Shown here piece after piece: positions 9,871-51,408 of a stretch of 64,000 nt of DNA (positions are counted from its first letter, which is position 1; each line of letters begins with the position of its first letter). The translations under genes were made by a program, and so were the position numbers. The notes beneath the pieces are model-generated. The model had not been told where the DNA came from. It ran no database searches and was given only the letters and a program-made list of their open reading frames with translations. The DNA is from Swaminathania salitolerans (GTDB taxonomy: Bacteria; Pseudomonadota; Alphaproteobacteria; Acetobacterales; Acetobacteraceae). The stretch covers positions 744,001-808,000 of the forward strand of contig NZ_BJVC01000001.1 in NCBI RefSeq assembly GCF_007988945.1, given 5' to 3'.

Positions 9871-10806
9871 TCAGGGAATCGGGGCGATGGTCGGACCGCC
9901 CGTGCCGGTGAAACCGCCCCCGGCGGGAGGCTCCGCCCTGGGGGGAGCACCATGGGGAGCAACAGGGGGAGCAGCGGGGTGAGAGGGGGGCGCCCCGATC
10001 GCAGCCTGTGCGGTAGCAGCATATTTCGGCATGAAGGGTCGAAGCACATAATGATAGAGCCCGCCGCCGATCACACCACCGACGAGTGGGCCTGCAATGG
10101 GCACCCACCAGAAATTCTGCGGAGAGGGGAAAGCCGAGGCGCCCCATCCGGCGAGATAGGCGAAGCTGCGCGGGCCGAAATCACGGGCCGGGTTGATCGC
10201 CCAGGCGTCGAGAAAGCCGGAAGACGCGCCGATTGCGGCGACGAGAAGGCCGATGATGAGCGCGCCGGAATTCGCCTCGGGTGCCTGGGTATTGTACTGA
10301 CATGTGATGGCGAAGACGCCGAAGACGAGCACGCCGGTGAGAATGATCTGTACGCCGAAAGAATGGAGCGCGGTCACCGCAAGGCCCGGATGGGTGAAGA
10401 ACACGCCGGCTGCGCCGCCGTCACCGGCCCGGGTCAGGTGATGGGTCATGTTGTAATGATCGATCACCGGCGAGAAGTTCATATAGACGAGTGCCGCCCC
10501 GGCCATCGCCCCCGCCACCTGCGCCGCGCAATAGGGGAGGACCTTCTTCCATGGAAAGCCGCGATAGAGCGCCAGTGCGAGGGTGACGGCAGGATTGGCG
10601 TGCGTGCCGCTCACCGATCCCGTCGCATAGATCGCGATGGTGACACCGAGCCCCCAGACGATGGCAACGCCCCAATAGGCATTCTGATAGGGATTCGGGT
10701 CGTAGAGCACGATCATCGCGGCGACGCTGTCGCCGAAGAGAATGATGATCACGAGAGCGAAGAATTCGGCGACCAGCTCGCCGATGAAGCGCTTTCTGTC
10801 TGACAT
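9871..10806 (-). CDS. glpF: glycerol facilitator (aquaglyceroporin)
   Basis: MIP-family channel for glycerol uptake, 311 residues with six membrane segments. Both selectivity half-helices are intact: HANPAVT at about 69-75 and [10 protein letters not shown] at about 204-213. The Asp after the second NPAR marks the glycerol-facilitator branch rather than water channels. The C-terminus is unusual: about 45 residues rich in Pro, Ala and Gly (blocks such as [14 protein letters not shown]) encoded by a degenerate repeat near 9940-9985. It lies 67 bp before glpK and 79 bp after glpD. Confidence 0.95.
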
Positions 10807-47220: not shown

Positions 47221-47331
47221 CAGAGCCCGCAGGGAGGAGGGGGCAACCTCTTGCGTCCCCGCACGAAACAGGGCAAAGAAACGCCGCTCCCGAGAAGGGG
47301 CGCCCTGTGCGGATCATCATCCGGACAGAAG

Positions 47332-47421
<90 letters not shown>

Positions 47422-47439
47422 TTTCAGTCCCAAAGTGGG

Positions 47440-48430
47440 CACGCCGATTCCCGACGATCTCCCGCTAGAGACCGAAGTAAGGGCGCGCAGCAATTCGTCC
47501 TTCGATCCCATGATGCGAACATGGCCTTCTCCGACTTCAACGCGCTGGGCAAAAGCGCGCAGATGATCCCGCCGGTAGCCGCCACCCTCCAGCCAGAGCC
47601 GCCGCCGTGCGGTCGTGGCGAACTTTCGTAAAACAGCCGGCGTCACCGCCATGCTGCCGGAGCTTTCGAGCATGGCCTGTGCTCGCTCGGAATCGACTTG
47701 CGCCTGGTCGCGTAGCGCCCGGAGGGCGACGACGTGCTCCTTCAACGCCGGGTCGTTCAGATCGGCCACGCCCGCTTCGATGGCTTCGTAGAGGCGTTTC
47801 AGGCGAAGCTCGGTCTCGGCCGCGCGCCGGCTCAACTCGGCGATATGCTCCCTGCGCCGATCCGCCCGCTCCTCGCGTCGATCAAGGATCGAGGCCAGGA
47901 TCTCCTCCAACCGCTCGGGCTGGAGCAGCCGGTCTCGCCCTGCCGGGCCTTGATCGAGCAAGTGTAATAGCGATAGCGCCCGCCCATGCCGGTGCGGAGT
48001 GTCATGCCTCCCCCGCACTTCTCGCAGAAGCAGATGCCTGTCAGCAGGGTCGGCCCGCTGACGCGACGCGGCGGCGTGACCTTGGAGTTGCGGACCCGCA
48101 AATGCTCCTGCACGGCATCAAATGTCTCCTGATCGATCAGGCGCGGCACCGGGACAAAGACGATTTCGCTGACCGGCTTCAGCACCTTGGACTTGGAGCG
48201 CTTGTTGAACTCATGCTCGCCGACATAGGTGCGCCGGGCCAGAATGCGGTGAAGCTGACCGATGCCTCAACGTCCACCGTCGCGGGTGAAGATGCGGTTG
48301 CGGTTGAGATGATTAACGATGGCCTTGACGCCCATCGGCCCTGAGCCGTCTTCGCCCTGCCGGCGCTGGTCGGGGATCGACACGTCAGGCTCGGTCTGAC
48401 GCGCGGTGGATAGCTGTGATCGCGGTGATC
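47440..48430 (-). pseudogene. serine recombinase remnant (large resolvase family)
   Basis: Broken large serine recombinase. Reading the minus strand, an N-terminal scrap (STARQTEPDVSIPDQRRQ) joins directly to GPMGVKAIVNHLNRNRIFTRDGG near 48362, so most of the catalytic domain is deleted. A TGA at 48267-48269 stands where Trp is expected (GRW-GIGQLHRIL). The recombinase and zinc-ribbon domains continue (CFCEKCGGGMTLRTG) until a frameshift near 47930, after which the coiled-coil tail LQPERLEEILASILDRR resumes. The 3' end reaches the tRNA-Ser. It cannot make active recombinase. Confidence 0.85.
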
Positions 48431-48509
48431 AACATGGGTCGCCGGACATCCGATATAGCCGCCGTCAAGGGGGCTGCGCTTTCGCGAGCAAGCAAGTATC
48501 TTGTTTCCT

Positions 48510-49109
48510 ATGTTCAGACCCACGGTTGGAAAAAACGAACTCGTATCGCTCATCGAGGAGATGTCTGAACTCGATGTGGCAAGATTTTTCTACTTTCAGG
48601 AAATGGCGGCTACCTATCTGTCCGTTGGCAAATTCGAAAGCATGCTGATCTCAGCGATGCATATGTGCGATCGCGTCAAGGTTCGAAGAGCCCTCGGGCT
48701 GGACGAAGATGCGTGGGCACTGTCAGTCGCTAAAAAGTCTCAGCTTGAAGGATCGACCCTCGGCTCCCTGATCAAGATACTCGAACGCCATAACGTCGAT
48801 CCGGCGGACATAGCGCATGTGCGGTGGATCAAGGATAAGCGGGACTACTTTGTTCATCGACTTTTTTACGACCACGCTTGGCTTGGTGAGATGGACGCAG
48901 AGAGCTGCCAATTCATGAGGCGCCGCCTTCTCGCGATCCAGCTATGGTTGGAACGGGGAGAACGTAAAATCTGGCGCATTTTCGAACGCGTCGGATTTAT
49001 CGAGCTGGATCACCTCGAAGATGGGGGATTGCTCGTCATGAATGGCGGGGTCTACGACCTGATCCAGGCGGATATCACTAAGCTCGGATCTGAAGGAGCT
49101 GACGCTTGA
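48510..49109 (+). CDS. HEPN-like protein A of the island cassette
   Basis: Unrecognised 199-residue protein, mostly alpha-helical. The segment WIKDKRDYFVHRLFYD contains R111-x4-H116, the R-x4-6-H motif of HEPN ribonucleases, near the end of a helical bundle as in that superfamily. No membrane or signal segments are seen. The ATG at 48510 is chosen, although an in-frame TTG lies three codons earlier and no strong ribosome site is visible. Base composition is visibly more AT-rich than the flanking genes. Its stop overlaps the next start, so genes A and B are cotranslated. Function inferred only from motif and context. A non-enzymatic HEPN partner protein is possible. Confidence 0.65.
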   Translation: MFRPTVGKNELVSLIEEMSELDVARFFYFQEMAATYLSVGKFESMLISAMHMCDRVKVRRALGLDEDAWALSVAKKSQLEGSTLGSLIKILERHNVDPADIAHVRWIKDKRDYFVHRLFYDHAWLGEMDAESCQFMRRRLLAIQLWLERGERKIWRIFERVGFIELDHLEDGGLLVMNGGVYDLIQADITKLGSEGADA

Positions 49110-49789
49110 ATCCGGATCTGAAAGTTATACCGGATCGCATTCTCAACCTCGCGATCGGCGCGCTCAGCCAAGCTAACACACACGCTGTCTATTCCGATCC
49201 TGGCCGAGAATATTGGGATCATATGTGCATTCTCAATGCGGCTCACGCAGGTGAGCTCTTTTTAAAGGCAATTATTGCGCGAGAGCATCCACTCCTAATT
49301 TTCAAAGATCTCTTCAGCTTGGACGACAACAAAGGCAAGCTTCTTGATATAGAAACTCTGATCAGACGGGGTCGGACGCTCGATTTTGAGCGGTTGCCCC
49401 AGGTACTTTGGGCGACGACAGGCAGACGAATTCCCAACCGAAAGTGCTACGAGTGGGTGAGGTTAGCGCGCAATTCCATCCAGCACTTTTGCGCGCCGGA
49501 GAAGGACGATCTTCGGGCCTTATCACTCGAGTTCATTTACACCATTATCGATCCACTCATTATGGAGGTGTTTGGTTTATTCGCGATCGAATACCATGAA
49601 GATCCAAGCGTCGGGTACGACTATGTCGTCAGCTCGCTGCTCGGCAGAGAACTCAAGTTTAGCATTCCTGACGATTTTACGATCACCGAAATCAGTATGC
49701 CCGAGGTACTCGGAGGCGCGAGTGCCAAATATAAAAACTGGATCAAGAAGCAGATGACGAAGATTGGAAGGCTTGACCTCCTATCGTGA
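49106..49789 (+). CDS. HEPN-like protein B of the island cassette
   Basis: Unrecognised 227-residue protein starting at a TTG at 49106, supported by AAGGAG seven bases upstream and by overlap with gene A (TTGA). It contains R122-N123-S-I-Q-H127 in the helix WVRLARNSIQHFCAP, the canonical R-N-x3-H form of HEPN RNase active sites. The N-terminal half (NAAHAGELFLKAIIA, about 44-58) resembles the substrate-free first helices of HEPN bundles. The C-terminal 70 residues are of unknown type. Codon use is AT-rich (TTA, ATA and AAA codons are frequent), unlike neighbouring housekeeping genes. Confidence 0.7.
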   Translation: MNPDLKVIPDRILNLAIGALSQANTHAVYSDPGREYWDHMCILNAAHAGELFLKAIIAREHPLLIFKDLFSLDDNKGKLLDIETLIRRGRTLDFERLPQVLWATTGRRIPNRKCYEWVRLARNSIQHFCAPEKDDLRALSLEFIYTIIDPLIMEVFGLFAIEYHEDPSVGYDYVVSSLLGRELKFSIPDDFTITEISMPEVLGGASAKYKNWIKKQMTKIGRLDLLS

Positions 49790-49831
49790 CTTTGCGGAAT
49801 GTGATCCAATCTTGGAAGGGGGAGATTGGGC

Positions 49832-51055
49832 ATGACGCAAAGGCCGAAACGCAATGCGGCCAACAAACTGGAACGTTGGGAAATCGCGCTCATTAAGCGC
49901 ATGATCTCAGCAGGTATTTTGAACGATCAGGACATCCTTGCCTATTTCACGCGGCCAACTCGTAGCATCAACCATGCGCGGATTGCCGAAATTCGGAATC
50001 AGGCAAAACACCGCAACGTAGCGGCTGCCAGCCAAGCAGAGCTTGGGGCATTTTTGCAAGCGTGGCCACAGATAGATCCGGTCACTGGAGCTCACCTGCG
50101 CGGCGACGAGTTGCTTGTTAAAGCGCGCGAAGCGATGCTCCAGGCGGTGCAGGGCTTCAATAATCCTCGTGCCTATTTCAAAAGCGAAATGTTCATCGTC
50201 ATCGCGGTAATTGCTTACACTTACCTTCTTCACTGGCACTACCGTCGAAGCGGCGTCGACATCCGCTACAAGCGAGCGGTCGACGGTGTGGAGACCGTCT
50301 TGAAGACGCGGCACGGAGCAGACAAACATTGGGAGCTGGAGGCGTGCATCGACTACGCCGAATGTCCTCTCGATGCTCCAACGATTGCGAACCTCAGGTT
50401 TTTGATCGCTATTCGGCATGAGATTGAGCACCAGCTAACCAACCAGATTGATGATACGATCTCAGCGAAGCTGCAGGCCTGCTGCTTGAATTTCAACCGG
50501 GCTATAAAGGAGATTGCGGGCGCGCAGCACGGCCTGGACCGAGATCTATCCCTTGCCTTACAGTTCAGCGGTATCAGCAGAGATCATCGTAACATCCTGC
50601 TCTCCGAGACGGATATGCCGGCTCACATCCAAGCAGCTCATACTGAATATGAGGATGGGTTGACCGACGAGATGGTGGCGGATCCGCGCTATTCTTATCG
50701 CGTCGCCTACATCGAGCAGGCGGTGAACTCGCGAGGGAAGGCGGATCAAGTTGTTGAGTTTCTACGTCCGGGTACTGAGAAGGGTGACCATGTTCGACTG
50801 GCGTTGAGAGAAGTCGAAAAACCGAAGCTTAAGCCGGGCCAGATCGTCTCTCTGATGAGAGAGGAGGGCTATCCTCGCTTCAATTTGCATCATCATACCC
50901 AGCTTTGGCAGACAACGGACGCTAAGGCTCCAGGCAAAGCATTTGGGACGACTCTGGCTGATGGCGCTTGGTATTGGTACCCAGCGTGGGTTGACCAAGT
51001 GCGAGCGCATGTGCAGGCAAATGGAGATCGATATGGGCCAGGGCCAGCCGGGTGA
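49832..51055 (+). CDS. DUF3644 (HEPN-like) protein C of the island cassette
   Basis: Protein of 407 residues with three parts. The N-terminal 12-55 region is a helix-turn-helix-like segment (NDQDILAYFTRPTRSINHARI) that is typical of DUF3644 proteins. The DUF3644 core covers about 95-235 with FNNPRAYFKSEMFIVIAVIAYTYLLH and LRFLIAIRHEIEHQL, the latter split here as R195-x4-H200, again an R-x4-H motif. The C-terminal part near 310-390 (LKPGQIVSLMREEGYPRFNLH, WYWYPAWVDQV) is a conserved tail of unknown function. ATG 49832 has AAGGGGGAG seven bases upstream. It starts 42 bp after gene B, so all three genes probably share a transcript. Confidence 0.8.
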   Translation: MTQRPKRNAANKLERWEIALIKRMISAGILNDQDILAYFTRPTRSINHARIAEIRNQAKHRNVAAASQAELGAFLQAWPQIDPVTGAHLRGDELLVKAREAMLQAVQGFNNPRAYFKSEMFIVIAVIAYTYLLHWHYRRSGVDIRYKRAVDGVETVLKTRHGADKHWELEACIDYAECPLDAPTIANLRFLIAIRHEIEHQLTNQIDDTISAKLQACCLNFNRAIKEIAGAQHGLDRDLSLALQFSGISRDHRNILLSETDMPAHIQAAHTEYEDGLTDEMVADPRYSYRVAYIEQAVNSRGKADQVVEFLRPGTEKGDHVRLALREVEKPKLKPGQIVSLMREEGYPRFNLHHHTQLWQTTDAKAPGKAFGTTLADGAWYWYPAWVDQVRAHVQANGDRYGPGPAG

Positions 51056-51408
51056 AGAAATCGAGCGCCTTCGCGATGCGCATGATCATTGTACTGCGAT
51101 ACCGTGCCAAACCTCCGAAATGGCCGCCGTTAGCCGCATAGTGCGGAGTATCTGTATAATAATCAGAGGTTTATGATGATGTCGTAGTAATCATTTTCAT
51201 CGGGCGCTGCCCGCCATGATTTCGAAAAAACGAGTGCTAATAAAAAACGAGTGCTCATTCCGTGCATTCGCTGGCCCGGCCCGCAGTAGCGCAGGGCAGA
51301 ACCGCATCTTCGCGCGTCCTGACTTCCGGTCGGTGGCTGTCCGGCTGGCAATGCGTTGCAAGGAGGCCGCAAGCGGGCGCAGGTAGCGCCAGAGCGAGGC
51401 ACGCGCGA
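51056..51408. other. right flank of the island, no gene seen
   Basis: About 350 bp between gene C and the secB terminator. It contains a 17-bp tandem repeat and AT-rich stretches at 51150-51260, then returns to GC-rich sequence. No copy of the tRNA-Ser 3' end was found by eye, so the right boundary of the island is undefined. Confidence 0.5.
51225..51258. repeat. 17-bp tandem duplication
   Basis: aaaaaacgagtgct appears at 51225-51238 and again at 51242-51255 with period 17, in the AT-rich right flank of the island. Confidence 0.85.

Follow-up and report, generated by a model that had tools for sequence, protein, structure and literature searches.

A mobile block of HEPN and HEPN-like genes in Swaminathania salitolerans, possibly an antiviral cassette

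Introduction

Among the effectors of abortive infection, HEPN RNases form a major class, and most discussions of them concern single proteins, fusions or pairs of toxin and antitoxin. A 64,000-nucleotide stretch of the Swaminathania salitolerans genome (contig NZ_BJVC01000001.1, positions 744,001 to 808,000 of the forward strand; hereafter the window) holds three closely packed genes, here called A, B and C, and each of the encoded proteins carries an R-x4-H motif of the HEPN type. The locus raises the question of whether these genes work together or are separate systems that travel side by side. An initial annotation made from the sequence had proposed a multi-subunit RNase system acting in defense or as a toxin. 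We found that the three genes move as one block between unrelated genomic flanks, that the predicted structure of B fits the HEPN fold and that C belongs to a published HEPN family. We tentatively read the block as a cassette of HEPN RNases that would cooperate, probably against viruses.

Results

Gene A (48510-49109) encodes 199 amino acids from an ATG start, gene B (49106-49789) encodes 227 amino acids from a TTG that follows AAGGAG, and gene C (49832-51055) encodes 407 amino acids from the ATG at 49832, which is preceded by GGGGGAG and has a further in-frame TTG upstream at 49826. All three are intact open reading frames (ORFs) on the forward strand; A runs 4 bp into B, and the gap from the stop codon of B to the ATG of C is 42 bp. 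The GC content is 52.5% in A, 49.6% in B and 54.7% in C, as compared to 66.4% and 63.2% in two flanks and 63.4% in the window. The packed, AT-richer trio that had been described initially was therefore borne out by the ORF coordinates and the GC values.

The A-B-C block (48410-51217, forward strand) moves as a unit between unrelated flanks. It was found again, with ~97% identity, in two Ancylobacter genomes (loci L002 and L003, 16.7 kb each; 97.0% and 96.9% identity, respectively, over ~2.84 kb), and blastn of the window against these loci at E<=1e-5 gave no match besides the ~2.8-kb block. Its right terminus (51112-51217, forward strand) ends in ...TTTCATCGGGCGCTGCCCGCCA and is followed by different DNA in four loci, namely the window, L002 and L003 (both near 10125) and a Sinorhizobium plasmid (L058, near 8080). 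The terminus sequence also had a 73% match in Shinella. Repeats like CCGATAGCCGCCG are present in this ~100-bp terminus, and a similar motif occurs upstream of A near 48447. The right end thus behaves like the terminus of a mobile element, and for this reason an RNA fold at the right end (z=-2.06) was set aside. No transposase or integrase for the block was identified. Near the recurring terminus on the Sinorhizobium plasmid, transposase-like ORFs were recognized by eye (L058 5451-7502).

The HEPN active site has been described in a 2013 survey (Anantharaman 2013, PMC3710099) as Rx4-6H with N, D or H after the R at the end of helix 3, together with a conserved acidic residue on helix 2, typically in an Ex3[KR] pattern. 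The motifs at this locus are R111-DYFV-H116 in A, R122-NSIQ-H127 in B and R195-HEIE-H200 in C, the last counted from the ATG at 49832. When the three sequences were shuffled, the plain Rx4H pattern turned up in 39% of the A copies, 33% of the B copies and 79% of the C copies (product 0.10), while the stricter R[N/D/H]x3H pattern occurred in 4.7%, 5.7% and 19.4% (product 5e-4). Since the plain pattern is too frequent in shuffled proteins, with ~10% for all three jointly, its coincidence in the three proteins was dropped as evidence, and conservation in relatives was taken as the decisive support instead. The motif was kept in all 18 distinct B sequences (the window one included), in 27 of the 28 C sequences, the exception being a fragment that lacks the region, and in all four A sequences, three of which are near-identical. 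The occurrence of R-x4-H in each of the three proteins, noted at the outset, is thus upheld by its conservation among the relatives of all three.

An AlphaFold model of B built from seven sequences reached a predicted local distance difference test (pLDDT) score of 85.6. When the model was given a second look with VIA-align, rows 1-20 had Z scores of 11.3 to 7.4 over 114-126 residues. By title, eight of these rows are HEPN toxins or MntA-HepT complexes, including the HEPN-MNT entries PDB 8xeh and 6m6w. Six further chains (7bxo, 5yep, 1ufb, 2q00, 3mfn and 9oik) are presumed HEPN proteins or of uncertain assignment. The other rows comprise two chains (1ylm and 1wwp) named as HEPN proteins and four ANT-4 nucleotidyltransferases, a group whose helical domain is related to HEPN (PMC3710099). 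The CRISPR RNases Csm6 and Csx1 appeared lower in the list (Z 6.6 and 5.5, respectively). In the model, helix 112-126 carries R122 near its end, with H127 just past it, and the second helix (37-60) contains E50-x3-K54; all 18 B sequences have E-x3-K. We accepted the assignment because the top VIA-align rows are filled by one superfamily and the motif positions agree: as modeled, B fits the HEPN fold, and its R and H occupy the positions seen in HEPN RNases. The PADLOC model PDC-S64 was matched by all 13 B sequences scanned (best E=1.8e-9). The window B matched it with E=1.7e-8, covering profile positions 34-143 of 339, and is therefore a short or divergent member at best. Six of the 13 sequences also matched PADLOC's DUF3644 model weakly (best E=7.8e-4). 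The ratio of nonsynonymous to synonymous differences (pN/pS) between B and its Ancylobacter counterpart was 0.22, the differences being mostly at silent sites.

C matched Pfam DUF3644 (PF12358) with 170.6 bits against a cut-off of 27.6, over positions 1-182 of the 183 in the profile, and PADLOC PDC-S19 with E=7.8e-117. DUF3644 is a published HEPN family (PMC3710099), and C is a DUF3644 HEPN protein by this family assignment. Its pN/pS relative to Ancylobacter was 0.10-0.14, again with mostly silent-site differences. The N-terminal region of C (~70-80 residues) is reused before SLFN_AlbA_2 domains in three loci (L005 6441-7949, L026 1489-3015 and L028 1492-3030), and a C-type N-terminal region also precedes a weakly matched metallo-beta-lactamase-like domain (L029 175-1731). 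The region is a shared module for which we found no name.

The predicted structure of A, built from three near-identical sequences, had a pLDDT of 39. As this model failed, we graded A as HEPN-like by its motif only. The HEPN folds expected of all three proteins were accordingly supported for B by its model and for C by its DUF3644 membership, but not for A. Sequence searches of solved structures with the A, B and C alignments gave no match at E<=10. Residue E43 is invariant in the four A sequences (three of them near-identical) but has no K or R at +4. Membership of A in a named family was rejected, with no Pfam match to E=10, no PADLOC or NCBIfam match to E=1 and phrog_12893 as the only candidate (E=0.066). 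The pN/pS of A relative to Ancylobacter was the highest of the three genes (0.68-0.93), a value that rests on 17 differences, so that relaxed and diversifying selection are inseparable. The sole clear relative of A (36% identity) is encoded in a two-gene operon on the Rhizobium plasmid pRLG202 (L007 5141-6573), where it overlaps by 4 bp an upstream protein with RNARFH, and both proteins thus carry R-x4-H. This partner has a weak HEPN_Cthe2314 match (PF18730, E=0.0011, under the curated cut-off). In each of its two known settings A is thus accompanied by a HEPN-like gene, and the partners differ. Beside an Azospirillum relative of the Rhizobium partner, A was neither annotated nor found. Two further matches, one in genome G238 with 26% identity and five internal stops and one in G781 that is partial and lies beside phage-like genes, were not counted as clear relatives. 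A distant A-like protein (L054 1300-1887; profile E=5.4e-7 with the search size set to 1000), with phage-like genes nearby (portal-like by eye), has RDFLAH aligned at the motif site of A.

We then considered which of the three genes occur together in other genomes. In a sample of 385 genomes of the class, that of the window included, A was found at E<=0.001 in two (the window's own genome and one with a doubtful, broken hit), B in three and C in 15, several of the C hits being partial. A set of 397 genomes from the order to which a Rhizobium genome belongs yielded A in one (partial, beside phage-like genes) and B in five, the center genome included. In viral contigs there was one B, no A in two scans and four C, and in an annotated phage collection queried with A and B there was one B and no A. 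The B set comprised 18 loci with flanks, the window and Ancylobacter copies and repeats being collapsed; it includes pairs up to 85% identical (L041/L047 and L006/L037), and its loci are not all fully independent. The C set comprised 26 loci scoring at least 120 bits, several of them truncated or without the N-terminal region and some with flanks of ~1.5 kb or shorter. The plasmid records inspected were six of the eight with B (the other two having the same figures as inspected ones), one of the two Paracoccus plasmid places with B, and 11 of the 27 with C. The scan of genome contigs used B as the query and gave five loci.

C was the immediate neighbor of B in three of the 18 B loci, in three different arrangements. 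The first is A-B-C, in the window and the two Ancylobacter genomes; as the Ancylobacter copies share 97% identity with that of the window, they were counted as one origin with it. In the second (G298), C precedes B with 1 bp between them. In the third (G515), B and C stand head to head ~170 bp apart beside a tRNA-Ser (tga). A tRNA of this kind (47332-47421, forward strand) is also the nearest landmark in the window, ~1 kb upstream of the block. The G298 and G515 pairs stand alone between genes that look ordinary by eye. In a fourth case (L005), a frameshifted B follows a protein that joins the N-terminal region of C to an AlbA_2 domain. With the assumption that one in 10 C-bearing genomes places C by B, which is our own rough and generous figure and is applied to B loci that are not all fully independent, the three B-C adjacencies have P of ~1e-5 to 5e-5; excluding the window locus gives 7e-4 to 2e-3. 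Random placement cannot account for them. The search for co-located homologues thus returned A, B and C together in two Ancylobacter genomes and B with C in unrelated genomes, but the Ancylobacter trio shares a single origin with that of the window.

Elsewhere B keeps varied company. A HATPase_c-type ATPase gene lies 9 bp upstream of B in L004 (a weak match, under the cut-off) and 137 bp upstream in L040, in L041 an AlbA_2 protein is encoded 350 bp downstream, in L031 B is overlapped by a gene that matches MUG113/T5orf172, and a ParB-like protein, so named by eye and with no Pfam match, is encoded 8 bp upstream in G539. In the phage PV036456.1 (L074 3256-5792), a B relative with RNSIQH overlaps an HNH endonuclease gene whose product has a weakly Mrr_N-like N-terminus, and a DNA methyltransferase gene lies on its other side, a restriction-like setting. 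Several B loci have no obvious same-strand partner. By eye, related ParB-like proteins (L067 3671-5161, L031 4625-5962 and L065 1317-1973) occur near B in two genomes and with the Azospirillum relative of A's partner; Pfam gave no ParB match for those in L067 and L031. Upstream of the cassette in Ancylobacter (L002 2602-7307), a weak HATPase_c gene, a gene for 423 amino acids and one for 385 amino acids that is nuclease-like by eye, with no confident Pfam family, possibly form another uncharacterized defense operon.

Discussion

We favor, at close to an even chance, the explanation that A-B-C is a cassette of HEPN RNases that spreads horizontally, would cooperate and is probably antiviral. The model of B, the family of C, the invariant motifs, the mobility of the block and the recurrence of B with C all argue for it. 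C would be both sensor and effector, its N-terminal and C-terminal regions reading an infection cue and its HEPN domain being able to cut RNA, and it could also act alone. B would be an exchangeable, portable RNase effector, with C as its partner at this locus and ATPase, AlbA_2, HNH or ParB-like proteins in that role at others. Upon infection, B and C would cleave tRNA or mRNA and phage growth would stop, possibly at the cell's cost; for other HEPN systems, RNA cleavage and abortive infection have likewise been suggested (PMC3710099). A is translationally coupled to B and changes fastest of the three, and it may be a HEPN-like partner that tunes or restrains B.

Several observations weigh against this explanation. 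B was nearby in just three of the 26 C loci, and the other 23 had no B and, by eye, no recurrent partner, so that C is evidently independent of B. Conversely, 15 of the 18 B loci had no C alongside, and 14 had neither C nor its N-terminal region. The order and orientation of B and C differ across all three adjacencies. The fold of A is not modeled with confidence, and its relatives are very few. Foldseek with the B model gave no match at E<=0.001, and the Z scores of B are to be read with VIA-align's own caveat that helical bundles may reach Z ~13 by chance. Profile comparison of A with B, A with C and B with C gave no significant similarity; the motifs do line up in the best-scoring B-C and A-B stretches, at non-significant E-values of 0.11 and 0.67, respectively. 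We found no phage-resistance, toxicity or RNase data for A, B or C, and the PADLOC entries are candidate families. The separate occurrence of B and C in most loci also speaks against the single complex requiring A, B and C together that had been suggested at first. The DNA-binding role first put forward as a possibility for C, whose N-terminal region is shared with AlbA_2 proteins, found no support here.

The main rival, which is quite possible, holds that B by itself and C by itself make up a complete one-gene HEPN system and that the two come together on mobile blocks and in hotspots, with A as a third passenger and co-transcription incidental. The frequent separation of B and C, their unconserved orientation and the B loci with no obvious same-strand partner are all as expected if each gene suffices by itself. 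PADLOC moreover places the matches of both B and C under PDC-S names, which we take to be those of single-gene candidates. On the other side, three B-C adjacencies, two of them as lone pairs among ordinary genes, exceed what loose clustering in islands would be expected to give, and the spacing is tight, with the 4-bp overlap of A and B and the 1-bp gap in G298.

A bolder alternative is that the three different HEPN proteins form a heteromeric RNase with composite A-B and B-C sites, in which C would sense, A would set the trigger or the target, and the B module would be reused with ATPase, AlbA_2, HNH and ParB-like partners in bacteria and a phage. HEPN sites are usually formed between two like subunits, and we regard this alternative as unlikely.

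Rather improbable, in our estimate, is a toxin-antitoxin pair that sets a HEPN RNase toxin, B (or C), against A as its protein antitoxin or catalytically weak HEPN partner, kept available by the overlap coupling. A does precede B with a 4-bp overlap, and its only clear relative likewise overlaps by 4 bp the weakly HEPN_Cthe2314-like protein with RNARFH. However, the full RDxxxH was kept in all four A sequences, which an inhibitor would not need, A was absent from the other 17 B loci, and no nucleotidyltransferase antitoxin was found in the block. That the block is degenerate cargo of an old integrative element at the tRNA-Ser, with no present function, is very improbable. A broken serine-recombinase remnant (47317-48400, reverse strand; zinc-ribbon match E=1.2e-10) does lie between the tRNA and the block, but none of the three ORFs is disrupted, either in the window or in two other genomes, and the differences in B and C are mostly silent.

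The cassette that we favor has parallels among known systems. The families of B and C are already known as candidates, and an operon with two HEPN genes is already in print (PMC3710099). C resembles the DUF3644/EC042_2821 family (PDC-S19) in matching both models and in keeping the R(H/N/D)xx(I/V)EH-type motif; it differs in being the third gene of a three-gene block, and 23 of the 26 C loci had no B nearby. The winged helix-turn-helix, restriction endonuclease and zinc-ribbon fusions described for EC042_2821 (PMC3710099) were not detected in C by Pfam. B shares with PDC-S64 a match in every sequence scanned and differs from it in the partial profile coverage of the window protein. Like this block, the operon of Bxe_C0808 and AbiU2 combines two different HEPN proteins (PMC3710099), whereas A and B have no Pfam HEPN_AbiU2 match; the likeness was drawn from the description of Bxe_C0808. 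HEPN-MNT toxin-antitoxin entries (PDB 8xeh and 6m6w) are among the best structural matches of B, but the block has no nucleotidyltransferase antitoxin, as A, B and C are its only substantial same-strand ORFs and none matches such a family. The phage B relative beside HNH and methyltransferase genes recalls the HEPN proteins in restriction-modification settings (PMC3710099), while neither a nuclease nor a methylase gene is present in the window cassette. A Cthe_2314-like HEPN protein (PF18730) is weakly matched by the partner of A's Rhizobium relative; the window cassette gave no such match, and B stands there in the partner's stead. In the open-licence literature searched, one paper mentions DUF3644 and none mentions 'PDC-S19' or 'PDC-S64', and no pairing of DUF3644 with a second HEPN gene was seen among the titles and abstracts listed. 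The multi-HEPN combination that had seemed unfamiliar is therefore not entirely unprecedented, given the two-gene Bxe_C0808/AbiU2 operon (PMC3710099).

If the cooperation of B and C is real, a recurrent pairing of two HEPN proteins, joined here by a third, would show that HEPN proteins can be combined like interchangeable parts. The varied neighbors of B point to a portable effector that could be coupled to different sensors or nucleases, and the B-C pairing offers a small set of loci for asking whether HEPN heteromers exist.

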